A DNA stretch of 41,373 nucleotides from the NCBI GenBank assembly GCA_013314755.1, contig JABUFA010000034.1:1-41373 (forward strand), written 5' to 3'. This DNA is from Chthonomonadia bacterium (GTDB lineage Bacteria; Armatimonadota; HRBIN16). Position 1 is the stretch's first letter. Every line of letters begins with the position of its first letter. A program made the position numbers and the translations under genes. This document shows positions 2,155 through 30,933 of this stretch, piece by piece. The notes beneath the pieces are model-generated. The model ran no database searches. It had not been told where the DNA came from and worked only from the letters and a program-made list of their open reading frames with translations.

Positions 2155-3006
2155 TTACGGCTTGAACGCCTCGTTCCAGTGGATGTAGTTGAACATGCGG
2201 TTGTTAACCGCTGTCTGGTCCCATGGCCAGTACATCAGCTGTCTGCGTCGCATGGGCTTGGCATGACCATCTGCCCAGCCAATGGTCATTACTTGATTAT
2301 GGTTCCCCAAAGAGAATTGTGCATCCCCGGTACCGCACCAGTTTACTGTGAAGTAGTTCGGTGCGTCGGGCCAGTTGGGGTCGGCGATGTTGCGGTTATC
2401 CCAGCGCCAGTAGGACATGTGCCTCCCGTAGCTCACCATTGTCCACAGCTCATACATCAGAACCGTTTGCGCGGGGCGGCCCACCTCAGCGGTCGTTTTG
2501 GAATCAGCGCTCGCATAGTAGGCGCATAATCCGAACGTCGCTGTGTTCTCGTACGTGCCAGGCTGGAAGTGGGTGAACGAGTAGCTGATAGGATACCACC
2601 ACCCATTGGGCCCCGTACAGTCGTCGCGGCGCACGTTGTCGCTGGGGCACTTCCACACACCTGTGTTTTTCACGTATGGGTTCAGCATGTCTTCTGCCCC
2701 AATGGCCTGGTCGGGTCCGTTGGGGTCATTGTTCCAGCACTTGCTGGGGCAACCACCAGTGCACGCCCCCGGGTTGGTGTAACAGGTAGGATTGAGTACC
2801 AGCAGGCGATGGAACTTCTCGTCATAGTCCTGCGTGTACATCAAAGCGCCCAGAAGCAACTGCTTTACATTGGAGATGCAGTTTGCCTGTCGCGCCTTCT
2901 CACGCGCCTGGGCGAATACTGGGAACAGGATGGCTGCCAGTATCGCGATAATCGCGATGACCACCAGCAGCTCGATTAACGTAAATGCACGGCGAGACAT
3001 CTTCAT
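2155..3006 (-). CDS. DUF1559 prepilin-type N-terminal cleavage/methylation protein
   Basis: A type IV pilin-like or pseudopilin protein of about 283 aa. The N-terminus MKMSRRA is followed by [16 protein letters not shown], the class III prepilin signal: cleavage is expected before Phe, and Glu lies at +5 of the mature protein. The region after the helix ([16 protein letters not shown]) and the C-terminal part with [10 protein letters not shown] are typical of the DUF1559 family, which is expanded in Armatimonadota and Planctomycetes. The open frame extends upstream to 3153, but the -35/-10 promoter lies inside that extension, so the start is the ATG at 3006 or the ATG at 3000, both downstream of GGAAAGGAG. 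Many cysteines in the mature part (about a dozen) suggest disulfide bonds outside the cell. The specific surface role is unknown. Confidence 0.9.
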
Positions 3007-3042
3007 CAGGCTCCTTTCCTGTTGTGTGTAGCTTGTGATGAT

Positions 3043-3071
3043 ATTATAGAACGGTATACCACAGGTGTCAA
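3043..3071 (-). promoter_or_regulatory. consensus sigma-70 promoter of the DUF1559 prepilin gene
   Basis: On the minus strand TTGACA (3071-3066) is separated by exactly 17 bases from TATAAT (3048-3043). Both hexamers match the consensus. Transcription should start near 3036, giving a leader of about 30 bases before the ATG at 3006. Confidence 0.9.
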
Positions 3072-3169
3072 CGCTTTTGCCCCAGCGGCGGCAAAAATAT
3101 GGAGGATCGCACAGCTCGCCGATGGCGGCAATGACCGAATCATCAGGGATCATTCTGGACGCTACTTCC

Positions 3170-17850: not shown

Positions 17851-17890
17851 CCAGTTGCTGTCTTGTTCGCTCTGGAGGACTGGTTCGCAC

Positions 17891-19258
17891 GTGAAAAAGC
17901 GTACCCTGAAATGGTTTTTTTGGCTGTTATGGATTGCCGGCGGGCTGTACTTTGCCAATAAGAGCGCAAGCTACTATCGCCAGGCGAAAGCACTGCCGGA
18001 GAGCGTGCTGAGCGCAATTCCGGAGATGGCTCCTCATCGCGCGGGGGACCGGGTTCTTGTGTTTGCCCCACACCCCGACGATGAGGCGATTGGCTGTGCC
18101 GGAGTTATCCAGCAGGCGGTGCAGGCTGGCGCACAGGTCTGGGTGGTATACATGACCAACGGCGACGGCTTTCGCCTCGCCGTGGAACGTCAATACCGCC
18201 AGTCCAAACCCACCCCCGAACAGTACATCCAGTTCGGTGAGATGCGCCAGCAGGAAGCACGCCGTGCCATGCGCATCCTCGGGCTGGCAGACTGGCGGGT
18301 GACCTTTTTGGGCTACCCCGACCGGGGACTGGAGGCGCTTTGGCGGTCGAACTGGACGCCATGGAACGCCATGAACTCCTACTATACCTCTACCAGCACC
18401 AACCCGTATCGGGATAGCCTGCGACCCAATGCATCCTACTGTGGGCAAAACGTCCTGCGGGATGTGGAAACCATCCTGCGTCAGACCGTTCCCACTCACG
18501 TGTACGTGACCCATCCCGCCGATGACCACCCCGACCATTCCACCACTGCCCTGTTCGTGCAGACAGCGCTCGCACATCTGCGCATGCAAAGGCTGGGTTT
18601 TGCCCAGCGAGTGGTGCTTCGGTATTATATGGTGCACTGCGGCGACTGGCCCCAACCCCAGGGACTGCGCCCGCAGGCATACCTGACACCCCCTTCAGCC
18701 TTCTTCCATATCGGGCTGCACTGGAAAAAGCTGACCCTGACACCACAGCAACAGATGCTGAAACTGAAGGCGATACAGGCTCACGCTTCTCAGGTGCGCA
18801 TGATGTCTCGTTTTCTGCACAGCTTCGTCAGGCAGAACGAACTGTTTATCGAACAACCGGTGGTGCGTACCCTCTCGCCGAGCCAACCGCTGGTCTGGGA
18901 AGAACCGGACGCCGAAGATTTTCTGCGCGAGCTCCAGCCCGCGGGTGACTTCAGTGCCGGAATCGTGCGCACTGAAAACGGGCACATCGTCCTGCAGCTG
19001 TACACGCGCGCCCAGCCTCTTCCGGGCTTTGCTTACCTCTGCACTGCACACGTGCTTCACCCCGACGGCAGTGTCCATTCATTCACCCTGCGCGCCAAGC
19101 CGGGCAGGTCCAGCGCCTCAGCATGGACGGATGTGGACGGCGTCATCTTCCGCCTGCCTGCCGTTCCGAGTGGCTCCATCGTTACCCTGCACGCCCAGTC
19201 GCGCTTTGCTGGACTTCCGGTCGATAAGACCATCGGTCAGGTGCTGCAGACCCAGTAA
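17891..19258 (+). CDS. membrane-anchored PIG-L family deacetylase
   Basis: A 455-aa protein with a PIG-L/LmbE domain, a zinc-dependent deacetylase fold that acts on N-acetylglucosamine-type groups. After a basic N-terminus and one membrane segment (about 8-22) the domain starts near 53 with the metal motif HPDDE (61-65); the third ligand region is HPADDHPDHST, with the conserved His. The C-terminal 150 residues form a separate, probably beta-rich domain (FSAGIVRTENGHIVLQLYTR) that I do not recognise. The start is GTG at 17891; GGAGG lies 12 bases upstream. The anchored enzyme probably works outside the membrane on a surface polysaccharide or glycolipid. It stands alone after the tRNA. Confidence 0.88.
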   Translation: MKKRTLKWFFWLLWIAGGLYFANKSASYYRQAKALPESVLSAIPEMAPHRAGDRVLVFAPHPDDEAIGCAGVIQQAVQAGAQVWVVYMTNGDGFRLAVERQYRQSKPTPEQYIQFGEMRQQEARRAMRILGLADWRVTFLGYPDRGLEALWRSNWTPWNAMNSYYTSTSTNPYRDSLRPNASYCGQNVLRDVETILRQTVPTHVYVTHPADDHPDHSTTALFVQTALAHLRMQRLGFAQRVVLRYYMVHCGDWPQPQGLRPQAYLTPPSAFFHIGLHWKKLTLTPQQQMLKLKAIQAHASQVRMMSRFLHSFVRQNELFIEQPVVRTLSPSQPLVWEEPDAEDFLRELQPAGDFSAGIVRTENGHIVLQLYTRAQPLPGFAYLCTAHVLHPDGSVHSFTLRAKPGRSSASAWTDVDGVIFRLPAVPSGSIVTLHAQSRFAGLPVDKTIGQVLQTQ

Positions 19259-19269
19259 CAGAGCGCAAA

Positions 19270-19291
19270 GGCGCCGGGTTTAGCCGGCGCC
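19270..19291. terminator. hairpin between convergent genes
   Basis: GGCGCCGG and CCGGCGCC form an 8-bp, all G/C stem with a 6-base loop. It lies between the convergent PIG-L and prepilin genes. On the minus strand TTTGCGCTC follows it; there is no long U tract on either side, so it may end transcription weakly in both directions. Confidence 0.6.
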
Positions 19292-19335
19292 TCGCGGGAG
19301 GAGAGGAGGAGGATGGTTGGACGTTAAGTCTTCCC

Positions 19336-20019
19336 TCACGGCGACTGCAACGGGTTAAACTGGCTTACGCTCCATGGACTTACCACTGCCAGCCTGACCC
19401 ACCGCACGTGACCATCTGCAAACACCACGTTGTTTCCATCGTTATGGCGCGGACGCTGCCACTGCACCCGCTCGTGATATGCCGATTCCCAGTTCGGATG
19501 TCGCTCGGCGAGCTGCCCGGGGCTGACATACATCATGTAACTGGCAGTCGCGCCGTTCAGGTTATTCGCATCCGCCCGATTGTTGGGCGTATCGTAAGCC
19601 AGAAACGTGTTCGCTGGCAGGGTGATGCTGTCCAGCATCAATCCGCTGTATCCGTAAGCCGCGCCCATCAGGCGAGGAAAGCCCAACAGCGTATTATATG
19701 CGTAACTGGGCACCGGCTGGGTATTCTCAGGGCATACCCAGATGCGCATATCGGTAATATACGGTCGCAGTGCCGTCATCCATGCCCGTCCTTCGGGGGC
19801 AACGGGCGCATAGGGCATCGCCGCAGGGAGACTGCCTTCCCAGTCCTGGGCATACATCACGAACGCCTGTCCAATCTGGCGCAGATTGCTGACACAGGCG
19901 CTACCGCGTGCCGCCGCACGTGCACGCCCAAACACGGGCATCAACACGGACGACAGTATCGCCACCACGGCGATAACCACGAGCAACTCGACCATCGTAA
20001 AGCCTTTTCGCGTTCTCAT
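19336..20019 (-). CDS. DUF1559 prepilin-type protein, sigma-54 promoter
   Basis: A type IV pilin-like protein of 227 aa. The prepilin peptidase site is RTRKG before FTMVELLVVIAVVAIL, with Glu at +5. After the helix come FGRARAAARGSACVSNLRQI and, near the C-terminus, NVVFADGHVRWV, both standard for DUF1559 proteins. It is shorter than the 283-aa relative at 2155-3006 and has few cysteines. The ATG at 20019 lies eight bases after AAGGAG; a GTG at 20028 overlaps that site and is less likely. A -24/-12 promoter lies at 20108-20124, so it should be transcribed by RpoN with an enhancer-binding protein. Its role may be pilus subunit, minor pilin or pseudopilin. Confidence 0.9.
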   Translation of the reverse strand: MRTRKGFTMVELLVVIAVVAILSSVLMPVFGRARAAARGSACVSNLRQIGQAFVMYAQDWEGSLPAAMPYAPVAPEGRAWMTALRPYITDMRIWVCPENTQPVPSYAYNTLLGFPRLMGAAYGYSGLMLDSITLPANTFLAYDTPNNRADANNLNGATASYMMYVSPGQLAERHPNWESAYHERVQWQRPRHNDGNNVVFADGHVRWVRLAVVSPWSVSQFNPLQSP

Positions 20020-20107
20020 GACACTCACTCCTTATTTCACAGTGTTTGTCCTTGCGGGGCACCGTCTCTTGCGGTAGCCTCCTTTTTGCCTTGCACCACT
20101 ATTAAAT

Positions 20108-20124
20108 AGCAAAAAGCGTGCCAA
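20108..20124 (-). promoter_or_regulatory. sigma-54 (RpoN) promoter of the DUF1559 prepilin
   Basis: The minus strand reads TTGGCACGCTTTTTGCT. It matches TTGGCACG-N4-TTGCT at all conserved positions, with ten bases between the GG (-24) and the GC (-12). Transcription should start near 20097, about 78 bases before the ATG at 20019. The rest of the 20020-20220 gap probably holds enhancer-binding sites and the promoter of the divergent gene, but I cannot identify them. Confidence 0.8.
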
Positions 20125-20220
20125 AGCGGTGATAAAATTACCTGATTTTGCCCTCGAAAGCGGGAAAATGATGCCCTGCTCCCGAAAACATTACGGGTAA
20201 GAACGACGGGGAGGGACACG

Positions 20221-21480
20221 ATGCGCGTCATTGCCGAAGAAACCATTGCGACCTGCGAACCGCCCAATAACGGCTCAGGCCCCCTGTGGTGCTATGGTGC
20301 ACCGCTGATTGTGCGCACAGGAAATGAAGTCTATGCCAGCATCATGGAGACGGGAGCCAACGTGCCACCCCTGTGCAACACACGCCCCCGGCTCTATCGC
20401 AAACGAAAGGGCGAGGCATGGCAGATGGTATGGGCGCCTTCCGCCTTTCGCGAGCGCGAACCCTGTCCCCTCGTGACCACTCAACAGGGTAATCTGTTCC
20501 TCTCGCTGAATACCTCGCTCATGCCCCCAGGCACGCAGTACGGCAAATGCGAGCCGCACCTGCTGGAGTTCGCCCGCAATGCGCCGTCTGCCCCTCGAAA
20601 GCAGGTTCCCCCCTATCCGCGCACCGCCACGTTCACCGACCATTCCTACCGGGGCATCGCGGCAGACGGTGCACGCAATGAGATTCTGCTTCTGCACATC
20701 GACGCCCACACCAGCGAATACCACTACGCACTGCTGAAGAGCGATGGGCAATGGGACGCGCCCGGCGTCATCTCCTTCCCTATCCGCGCCTGCTATCCGC
20801 AGGTGCTCCTGCGCAACCGTTCTGCTTACGCACTGGCTATCGGCGACATTGTGGAACCGGTGGAAGAATGGCGGGGCTACAAACGCGAGAGAACCCAGCG
20901 CGAATGGGACTACGTTTTCCGCCGACTGTTTTTCACCTGGACGCCCAATGTGCTCTCGGAGCCGTTCAGCCCACCGCTGGAGATAGATAACGTGGACGAC
21001 ACCGGCGGGCATATCGTCAACCTGGACCTGTGGCTGGACAGGCGGGGTACGGCGCACGTTCTATACCGTCGAGAGCAGACCACCCCGCTGTTGCGCGAGA
21101 AGTACTTCCCGAACCTGCCCCTGCAGGCATCGCTGGAGTATTGCAGGGTGCAAAATGGACGTGTGGTAGACAGGCAAACGCTGATGCGCGGTGGTGAAGG
21201 TCTGTCCTCACCGCGTCCGCAGTACGCCCGCTTCCACTCACCCGACGGAAGACGCCTGCTGGCGGTCTGTGCGTTCACATCTCCCGAAGGCACATGGCAG
21301 AACGCGATACTGCCTCTACTCCCCAAAATCGGCGAGATGGAACCAATCCCGCTGCGCGAACCTTTCACCACCTTCTTCACCGCCTGTGAGCGAGGCGGAA
21401 GCCGCCCCTCACCGACGATTGACCTGTTCGGCATCGCGCAGGACGGCAGGGTGTTACGCTACGCCTGTGTGCAGATATAG
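20221..21480 (+). CDS. BNR/propeller-like protein of unknown function
   Basis: A 419-aa protein without a signal peptide. Its sequence is full of short beta-strand segments with Asp/Gly turns (WLDRRGTAHVLYRRE, then DGRVLRYACV near the end), as in BNR or sialidase-like beta-propellers, but no strict Asp-box is seen. No family is recognised with certainty. The ATG lies after GGGGAGGGACACG. It ends only seven bases from the end of a convergent sialidase-like gene, and the two may act on related substrates. Other possibilities are a lyase-type propeller or a carbohydrate-binding protein. Confidence 0.75.
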   Translation: MRVIAEETIATCEPPNNGSGPLWCYGAPLIVRTGNEVYASIMETGANVPPLCNTRPRLYRKRKGEAWQMVWAPSAFREREPCPLVTTQQGNLFLSLNTSLMPPGTQYGKCEPHLLEFARNAPSAPRKQVPPYPRTATFTDHSYRGIAADGARNEILLLHIDAHTSEYHYALLKSDGQWDAPGVISFPIRACYPQVLLRNRSAYALAIGDIVEPVEEWRGYKRERTQREWDYVFRRLFFTWTPNVLSEPFSPPLEIDNVDDTGGHIVNLDLWLDRRGTAHVLYRREQTTPLLREKYFPNLPLQASLEYCRVQNGRVVDRQTLMRGGEGLSSPRPQYARFHSPDGRRLLAVCAFTSPEGTWQNAILPLLPKIGEMEPIPLREPFTTFFTACERGGSRPSPTIDLFGIAQDGRVLRYACVQI

Positions 21481-29853: not shown

Positions 29854-30933
29854 CTACCTCCGTCGGCGCAACGCCAGCAATGCGACACCGCCCAGCAACA
29901 CCAGCCCCGATGCCGGCTCGGGTACCGGCTGTGCCAGTATCACGCTCCAGTAGCGCACCCCGCCGATGTCTTCACGGGTGACCCACACCAGCTCGCCCCG
30001 GTCGTTCAGCGCAATGCGGAAACTGCGTGTGGTTCCGCTGTTGTTGGTCAGGGGTATCAGCGTGCCGTCCGCCAGCAGGTGCACATCGTATTTCTGGAAC
30101 AGGATAGCCTGCTCGTATGCCACCCAGCCGAGGTTGTTGATGTCGGGGAAGCTGCTGGCGGCGTTGCCCGTGTTGTTCGTCAGCGGGACGACCCCCGTCG
30201 CCTCCGACCACATTTCAATGTTCCAGTTACTGCCGTTATGGTGCATCCACACCACCTGACCGTTATCATTGAGGTCGGGCGAGGAGTAGTCGTCGCCGAC
30301 GGTGTTCCCGGTCAGGTCGCGGTATGCCCGCATGTCGTCCACATGCGCCAGATAGATTTGCGGGTTCATCTCGCTGTCCACCGCGTTCCAAACCACTTCG
30401 CCCCGATTGTTGATGCGCGGGTTCTGGCTGTCGAAGTCCGCCCAGCTGGTCAAGTTCACGGGAGCGCTGTCGCCGGGCTTCCACAGGTAGATGTCCTGAT
30501 AGCCCGTCATGTTATTCGTCCCGGTGGTCACAACCCAGCCCGAGTCGTTGATGTCGGGCGCACCAAAGCCCACCGAGCCGTCACTGCGGGTAATGTTGGT
30601 GATGATGCCGCTCTCCCACAGCACCACGTCGGACACGGAGCCATCATCGTAGCGCCAGACAATCTGGTTGCGGTTGTTGAGGCGGGGATAGGTGTTCAGT
30701 CGCCACTGTTCGCCCGCGCTGAGGCGGCGCACCTGCGTGCCGTCGTACAGCCACACATCCGAGCGCGTGAAGTCGCCCTCCGACCACACAATCCAGCCGT
30801 TGTTGTTGATGTGCACCGACTGTACCGAGTTCGTGTGGCGGTAGATGACCTGAGTGCGAAATATCGGCTGGGAGGTTGCCCGCAAACACGCCAGCAACAG
30901 CCCCGCCGCCACTGCACACGCCAGAATACGCAC
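29854..30933 (-). CDS. PEP-CTERM protein with a seven-repeat beta-propeller
   Basis: A 359-aa exported protein. It has a signal peptide (about 1-21; ILACAVAAGLLLACLRATS), then seven repeats of 40-50 residues around (I/L)-N-(N/D)-x-G-x-(I/V)-V-W (for example INNNGWIVWSE, INNRGEVVWNA, LNDNGQVVWMH), which fits a seven-bladed propeller. The end is a PEP-CTERM sorting signal: VPEPASG, a hydrophobic stretch and RRRR at the last positions. Exosortase should therefore cleave it and attach it to the surface or to exopolysaccharide. The start is GTG at 30933 with AAGGAGGAG upstream. It lies nine bases before the UroD-like gene. Confidence 0.9.
   Translation of the reverse strand: MRILACAVAAGLLLACLRATSQPIFRTQVIYRHTNSVQSVHINNNGWIVWSEGDFTRSDVWLYDGTQVRRLSAGEQWRLNTYPRLNNRNQIVWRYDDGSVSDVVLWESGIITNITRSDGSVGFGAPDINDSGWVVTTGTNNMTGYQDIYLWKPGDSAPVNLTSWADFDSQNPRINNRGEVVWNAVDSEMNPQIYLAHVDDMRAYRDLTGNTVGDDYSSPDLNDNGQVVWMHHNGSNWNIEMWSEATGVVPLTNNTGNAASSFPDINNLGWVAYEQAILFQKYDVHLLADGTLIPLTNNSGTTRSFRIALNDRGELVWVTREDIGGVRYWSVILAQPVPEPASGLVLLGGVALLALRRRR

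Follow-up and report, generated by a model that had tools for sequence, protein, structure and literature searches.

The stretch of DNA analysed here (the window; 41,373 nucleotides) carries on its minus strand a -24/-12 element ahead of a DUF1559 prepilin gene. We consider it probable, from comparison of sequences within the genome and across its genus, that this element is a working promoter that places the gene in a single sigma-54 regulon of the cell exterior, served by an activator that lacks a DNA-binding domain. The prepilin gene (19336..20019, minus strand; 227 aa; Pfam PF07963 and PF07596, TIGR02532, TIGR04294) encodes an N-terminal methylation motif followed by the DUF1559 domain (PF07596) and an H-X9-DG C-terminal motif. 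It has this C-terminus in place of a PEP-CTERM tail and no TIGR02595 match, and so is not a PEP-CTERM protein. The promoter, at 20108-20124, sits between the prepilin gene and a divergent gene of 419 aa that matched no Pfam family (20221..21480, plus strand); the convergent neighbour on the other side encodes a PIG-L-type deacetylase (17855..19258, plus strand; PF02585). This arrangement is conserved, with the deacetylase gene beside the prepilin ortholog in all seven other loci and the divergent gene's ortholog (69-77% identical) adjoining it in six of the seven. Elsewhere in the window, a PEP-CTERM gene at 29857-29925 (minus strand; about 359 aa, ending VPEPASGLVLLGGVALLALRRRR) has no sigma-54 box, its best site having three mismatches.

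Read on the minus strand from 20124 to 20108, the box is TTGGCACGCTTTTTGCT, or TTGGCACG-N4-TTGCT. In the window motif scan its TGGCACG-N4-TTGCT core (20108-20123) has no mismatch to TGGCACG-N4-TTGCW, and it likewise fits GG-N10-GC with the consensus TGGCAC-N5-TTGCW without a mismatch. The original prediction, that the minus-strand motif matches the -24/-12 consensus with exact spacing, is thereby borne out. The GG lies at 20122-20121 and the GC at 20110-20109, with the start site predicted at the G at 20097. The box does lie upstream of the prepilin gene as had been proposed, but not at the proposed 78 bases: 88 bases separate its end from the ATG at 20019 (79 from an upstream in-frame GTG), and 78 fits the span between the predicted start site and the ATG. 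A promoter scan of 19250-20300 found no sigma-70-type site above threshold, and none overlapping the box.

Every other site in the window has at least two mismatches, and allowing for two gives no enrichment there (7 observed against 9.6 expected from shuffles), so the window alone is insufficient to settle the matter. Across the genome (3.95 Mb in 88 contigs), however, the pattern TGGYACG-N4-TTGCW (TGGYACGNNNNTTGCW) occurs 24 times against 3 for its reversed control, and TGGCACR-N4-TTGCW 13 times against 2. At the control rate, we calculate about 0.03 exact sites per 41-kb window. Summed over the ten genomes of the genus, which make up the whole sample of the order, the first pattern is found 181 times against 28 for the control; the excess is present in all ten genomes, and is weak in G007 (6 against 3; 77% complete).

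Close orthologs of the prepilin (77-86% identical) are found in seven other genomes, or eight of ten including the window's own, while G003 (89% complete) and G007 yielded paralog-level matches only. The members of the genus include 'bacterium HR16' (unclassified at NCBI) and three other metagenome-assembled genomes. The box precedes seven of the eight orthologs, 98 to 104 bases ahead of the ATG, in the form TGG[C/T]ACGC[T/A]TTTTGC[A/T]. Among these seven, 13 of its 16 columns are invariant, a higher share than at four-fold codon positions (19 of 75) or in the leader (9 of 40 columns), and the changes are confined to the two positions at which the consensus itself allows two bases and to one spacer base. 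The exception is G004, whose ortholog (77% identical) lacks a box within the 222 bases that its contig extends upstream, which counts against assigning the gene to the regulon. Because rpoN is present in the genome and the box stands before seven of eight orthologs, the assignment of 20108-20124 as what looks like a true sigma-54 promoter is supported.

A search for rpoN, which the original prediction had called for, recovered a single copy whose product has all three sigma-54 domains, for activator interaction, core binding and DNA binding. Of 151 genomes sampled across the phylum, 102 are RpoN-positive, ten of these belonging to the genus. The genome encodes one true sigma-54 activator (PF00158, 250.9 bits; the other five matches score 24.6-33.3). 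At E <= 1e-30, a cut-off that leaves out weak AAA+ matches such as those five, exactly one activator is found in nine of the ten genomes and none in G007. The protein in the window's genome is 405 aa long and consists of a receiver, an AAA+ domain and its lid. By Pfam, the AAA lid is the last domain in all nine genus activators, with neither an HTH nor any other C-terminal DNA-binding domain behind it and no downstream room, the architecture of a group V activator. In the eight of these nine activators that were viewed for it, the GAFTGA loop reads NAFTGA or SAFTGA. Upstream of the activator gene lies a histidine kinase gene with the domain order GAF-GAF-PAS-HisKA-HATPase; its product shows no clear transmembrane stretch, the one window just above the Kyte-Doolittle threshold falling within the second GAF domain. 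A further box (TGGYACGGAAYTTGCA) is found 36-63 bases behind the activator's stop codon in nine of nine genomes. In the window's genome the gene behind the activator and this box encodes a REC-PilZ protein by Pfam, and ComM- and RarA-like frames, read by eye, also follow.

We then asked which genes stand behind the other boxes. Counting the prepilin's own, 19 of the 24 boxes stand ahead of genes of surface type, four of these 19 assigned by eye. Six boxes lie directly before PEP-CTERM genes identified by TIGR02595 or their tails (C2:24447, C5:15621, C21:65342, C66:111500, C67:42538 and C67:46570; contig:position), and one before a gene with a PEP-CTERM-like tail recognised by eye (C83:1424; no NCBIfam hit). 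Two more precede secreted proteins with an 'IPDAST...RRKR' tail, also read by eye (C5:7247, with no NCBIfam hit, and C66:135413). The box at C35:105682 heads an operon for an exosortase (TIGR02602), EpsI (TIGR02914) and a chain-length tyrosine autokinase (TIGR01007), all above their NCBIfam cut-offs. Exosortase, PEP-CTERM proteins and boxes before PEP-CTERM genes are thus all present in this genome, as in a PEP-CTERM/exosortase regulon. RHS proteins follow the boxes at C65:38350, C78:53180 and C87:13164, and a further one lies behind a TPR protein at C5:126522. Dockerin-type proteins follow C8:42082 and C52:62270 (the latter also a subtilase), with HMM scores at or just below the Pfam cut-off, and a protein with a dockerin-like tail, read by eye, follows C14:20753. 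Apart from C14:20753, HMM hits underlie the naming of the RHS, dockerin-type and cold-shock proteins of this genome.

At C85:41401 (L102:3401-4045), the box is followed by a gene for a sigma-70 region 4 protein and then by a PEP-CTERM gene, and a sigma cascade into the surface regulon is possible there.

The five boxes that do not precede surface genes count against a regulon of the exterior: one lies inside a gene and is taken as chance (C32:12585), two have no clear target (C40:36532 and C85:40055), and the others stand before a cold-shock protein (C66:310367) and a REC-PilZ regulator (C60:30839), both assigned by Pfam. In four or more genomes of the genus, a perfect box lies some 120 bases ahead of a gene for a cold-shock domain protein (L013, at C66:310367, and L262, L265 and L276; assigned by Pfam in G000 and by eye in G002, G005 and G007). 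The cold-shock protein is an unusual sigma-54 target. In the other nine genomes we viewed 27 loci, three in each, of which 14 could be assigned by eye: five PEP-CTERM-type, three cold-shock and two REC-PilZ genes, together with an exosortase, a polysaccharide-export-like, a dockerin-type and a prepilin gene. The remaining 13 were truncated, without assignment or intragenic.

The PEP-CTERM genes of the genome are of two classes, with and without a box. A perfect box precedes 7 of the 32 TIGR02595 matches, and at least 10 of the 32 have one with no more than one mismatch, the figure being a lower bound since two loci without an exact box (L168 and L247) stand outside the one-mismatch count. The automatic frame was off at three of the 32 loci (L168, L178 and L248) and missing at L247; L178 (box C21:65342) and the gene at C66:18908 (box C66:19810, one mismatch) were counted from separate scans, and the L156 match was counted through its operon box at C85:41401. 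From these counts, sigma-54 would serve only a subset of the PEP-CTERM genes.

This combination of genes and regulators resembles known systems in part. The passages of Haft 2006 drawn on here (PMC1569441) describe sigma-54 motifs before PEP-CTERM genes together with PrsK/PrsR/PrsT; among the species discussed there, Proteobacteria alone share this motif. The same passages place PrsR in the Fis family, with a separate motif some 63 bases off upstream, and describe PrsK as transmembrane. In Aquincola, the PEP-CTERM gene pepA is shown to depend on RpoN (PMC9850573). As far as these accounts go, our genome is like the PrsK/PrsR system in having -24/-12 elements before PEP-CTERM genes, a receiver-AAA+ activator beside a kinase, and an association with exosortase and EPS genes. 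Unlike PrsR, however, the activator has no DNA-binding domain; it is not PrsR, scoring 414.7 bits with TIGR02915 against a cut-off of 502.6 and showing no Fis-type domain. The kinase differs from PrsK in its lack of a clear membrane stretch. The set of boxed genes differs as well from the Proteobacterial PEP-CTERM regulon as outlined there, in that an exosortase operon, RHS, REC-PilZ and prepilin genes are also boxed here.

Receiver-AAA+ activators without a DNA-binding domain have been classed as group V or type Ic, with FlgR of Helicobacter and CtcC of Chlamydia as examples in the sections consulted (PMC7175178, PMC3162934, PMC7482065). The activator described here shares this architecture and is the genome's sole true sigma-54 activator. 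The targets of FlgR are flagella and those of CtcC late and type III secretion genes, whereas exosortase and other surface genes are boxed here. Going by the same sections, a further difference from FlgR and CtcC is the conserved T-/A-tract element upstream of 18 of 22 boxes, described below. Our search of the literature by title and abstract opening, which left most subscription papers outside its coverage, found no earlier description of this regulon.

Together, these findings suggest how the prepilin promoter may operate. Sigma-54 polymerase would wait at the box as a closed complex, and the GAF-GAF-PAS histidine kinase, with no evident membrane helices, would phosphorylate the receiver of the sole AAA+ activator. 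Because this activator lacks a DNA-binding domain, it would open the box from solution as an AAA+ hexamer, as FlgR and CtcC do, and most likely acts in the same way on the closed complexes at every box, that of the prepilin among them; genome-wide, with one true activator, we found no other protein able to open this promoter. The regulon so controlled would mainly build the cell exterior (exosortase, PEP-CTERM proteins, polysaccharide chain-length kinase, RHS and dockerin-type proteins) and would also include the REC-PilZ regulator. The prepilin would then be made when this surface or matrix programme is on, at the same time as its other products, whereas housekeeping-type promoters stand before many of its sister DUF1559 genes. 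The gene is thus probably switched on along with the surface coat, and not by a regulator devoted to pili.

To describe these promoters beyond the box, we used 22 of the 24 sites to train a profile, holding out the window site as a test and excluding the intragenic C32 site. Besides the box itself, the profile contains, above the TGG, a T-tract at about 30 bases and an AAAACC tract at about 10 and, below the box, TATA followed by GTGGA. The upstream part scores at p <= 0.0005 against shuffles of the same composition in 18 of 22 left-out sites, values that are not independent owing to near-duplicate training promoters (C5:126522 and C87:13164, for example). These two tracts are conserved above the boxes despite the lack of a DNA-binding domain in the activator. 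The element at L145 forms a perfect inverted repeat, TTTTTGCCCC-AAA-GGGGCAAAAA.

The prepilin promoter fits this profile only in part. Its start region (ATTTAATAGTGGTGCAAGGCAAAAAG; 20082..20107, minus strand) resembles those below the other boxes (TATA...GTGGA), with a shuffle p of 0.0023 for the downstream profile at the window site and 0.007 to 0.16 for six orthologs. The upstream element, however, was not found in place within the 40 bases above the box (p 0.53; six orthologs 0.22-0.62), and the spacer is CTTT compared with AWTC at most sites of the regulon, which counts against membership. A copy of the element shifted 12-13 bases upstream is the best fit in seven of seven orthologs, yet it is not significant. 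The window's shifted copy is equalled in score by 11 of the 74 regions upstream of other DUF1559 genes, and the copies of the six orthologs by 3 to 26 of these 74, so we do not count it as evidence.

Directly above the box, 18 of 26 columns (20149-20124) are invariant in the seven orthologs. Column conservation among them delimits a block, GGCAAAATCAGGTAATTTTATCAC (20129..20152, minus strand), which is possibly an operator of the prepilin promoter. Its core, GGTAATTTTATCAC (20142-20129), has this one exact site in the genome and three more with one mismatch, compared with six for the reversed control. A role for the block GGTARTTTTNTCAC in a wider regulon was rejected, since it has no other exact site, and four places in all with no more than one mismatch against six for the control.

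An extension of the regulon reading, which we put forward tentatively and as less than even in probability, is a genus-wide exterior regulon in which the group V activator is combined with a T-/A-tract element read by another factor or by the polymerase, the prepilin promoter having a variant, shifted or replaced form of that element. If so, the aiming of a group V activator would be in two parts, and differences between promoters would be set by the element and not by the activator.

Alternatively, the prepilin promoter may form a separate sigma-54 branch with its own inducing condition, on which a putative dedicated protein would bind GGCAAAA.C.GGTAATTTT.TCAC just above the -24 element, either as a co-activator or as a repressor that competes with polymerase. 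The invariant columns above the box, a block core that is unique in the genome and an upstream region without the regulon element in place would all fit such a protein. However, conservation of a short block within one genus may reflect only the shape of A/T-tract DNA, and the block coincides in part with the weak, shifted fit to the regulon element. We regard this arrangement as unlikely.

The original prediction had envisaged a third arrangement. In Proteobacteria, pilA is under sigma-54 control through PilS/PilR, and the same logic was proposed for this pilus subunit. The prepilin gene is like pilA in that a sigma-54 box precedes a type IV-type prepilin with an N-methylation motif; rpoN is present, and a pair consisting of a kinase and a receiver-AAA+ protein exists. 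Nevertheless, logic of the PilS/PilR type is not supported. The genome-wide PF00158 search found no PilR-type activator with a DNA-binding domain, separate from other activators, and such an activator is ruled out by the single true activator without an HTH, which would serve all boxes. Behind that activator lie REC-PilZ and frames resembling ComM and RarA, not pilus genes, its kinase is of the GAF/PAS type without a clear membrane stretch, and most of the boxed genes belong to exosortase/PEP-CTERM and other surface systems, including RHS and dockerin-type proteins. Unlike pilA, the gene is one of 75 that encode DUF1559 proteins. Dedicated pilus control of this kind appears very improbable.

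We next examined the DUF1559 family as a whole, scanning up to 350 bases upstream of each of the 75 genes with a PF07596 match for -24/-12 elements, as had been suggested. A sigma-54 box with no more than one mismatch precedes only 1 of the 75, the prepilin gene at 19336-20019, and two further genes have a box with two mismatches; the reversed control gives none at up to one mismatch and one at up to two. By contrast, sigma-70-like promoters (no more than 2 mismatches in 12) precede 26 of the 75 genes, against 3 with reversed hexamers, whereas the best such site of the boxed prepilin has 4 mismatches in 12. A perfect TTGACA-N16/17-TATAAT is found before four of the 75, among them the window's other DUF1559 gene, where the predicted TTGACA-N17-TATAAT is indeed present (3043..3071, minus strand, reading from 3071 to 3043; a sequence match). 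In its long frame, this second prepilin (2155..3153, minus strand; Pfam) would begin upstream of its own promoter; its real start is probably at 3006 or 3000, downstream of the promoter, because the PF07963 match begins at residue 52 of the long frame and because of the start context. The contrast drawn between a sigma-54 and a sigma-70 promoter for the two prepilins therefore holds, with the boxed gene as the exception in its family.

A chance match or unused sigma-54 site, with another sigma factor transcribing the prepilin gene, seems scarcely credible: exact matches do arise randomly (the three in the reversed control), one of the 24 sites is intragenic and one ortholog has no box, but a background site within 350 bases of any of the 75 DUF1559 genes on the right strand would be expected with a probability of only about 1% (3 x 75 x 350 / 7.9 Mb), no sigma-70 site lies nearby, and the genome counts together with retention of the box in seven of eight orthologs, with changes only at tolerated positions and one spacer base, led us to reject it.

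In the sections of Francke 2011 consulted (PMC3162934), sigma-54 is proposed as a controller of the bacterial exterior. As far as that proposal is set out there, the genes boxed in this genome fit it closely, though here the main boxed classes are PEP-CTERM/exosortase and RHS genes, in an uncultured genus. The regulon extends the link between sigma-54 and exosortase/PEP-CTERM systems beyond Proteobacteria, with a group V activator. For this uncultured lineage, it also offers a nearly complete and testable picture of sigma-54 control, consisting of one sigma factor, one activator and about two dozen promoters that mostly concern the exterior. Finally, one of some 75 otherwise uncharacterised DUF1559 prepilins gains a regulatory context, that of the surface or matrix, which makes it a priority for study.
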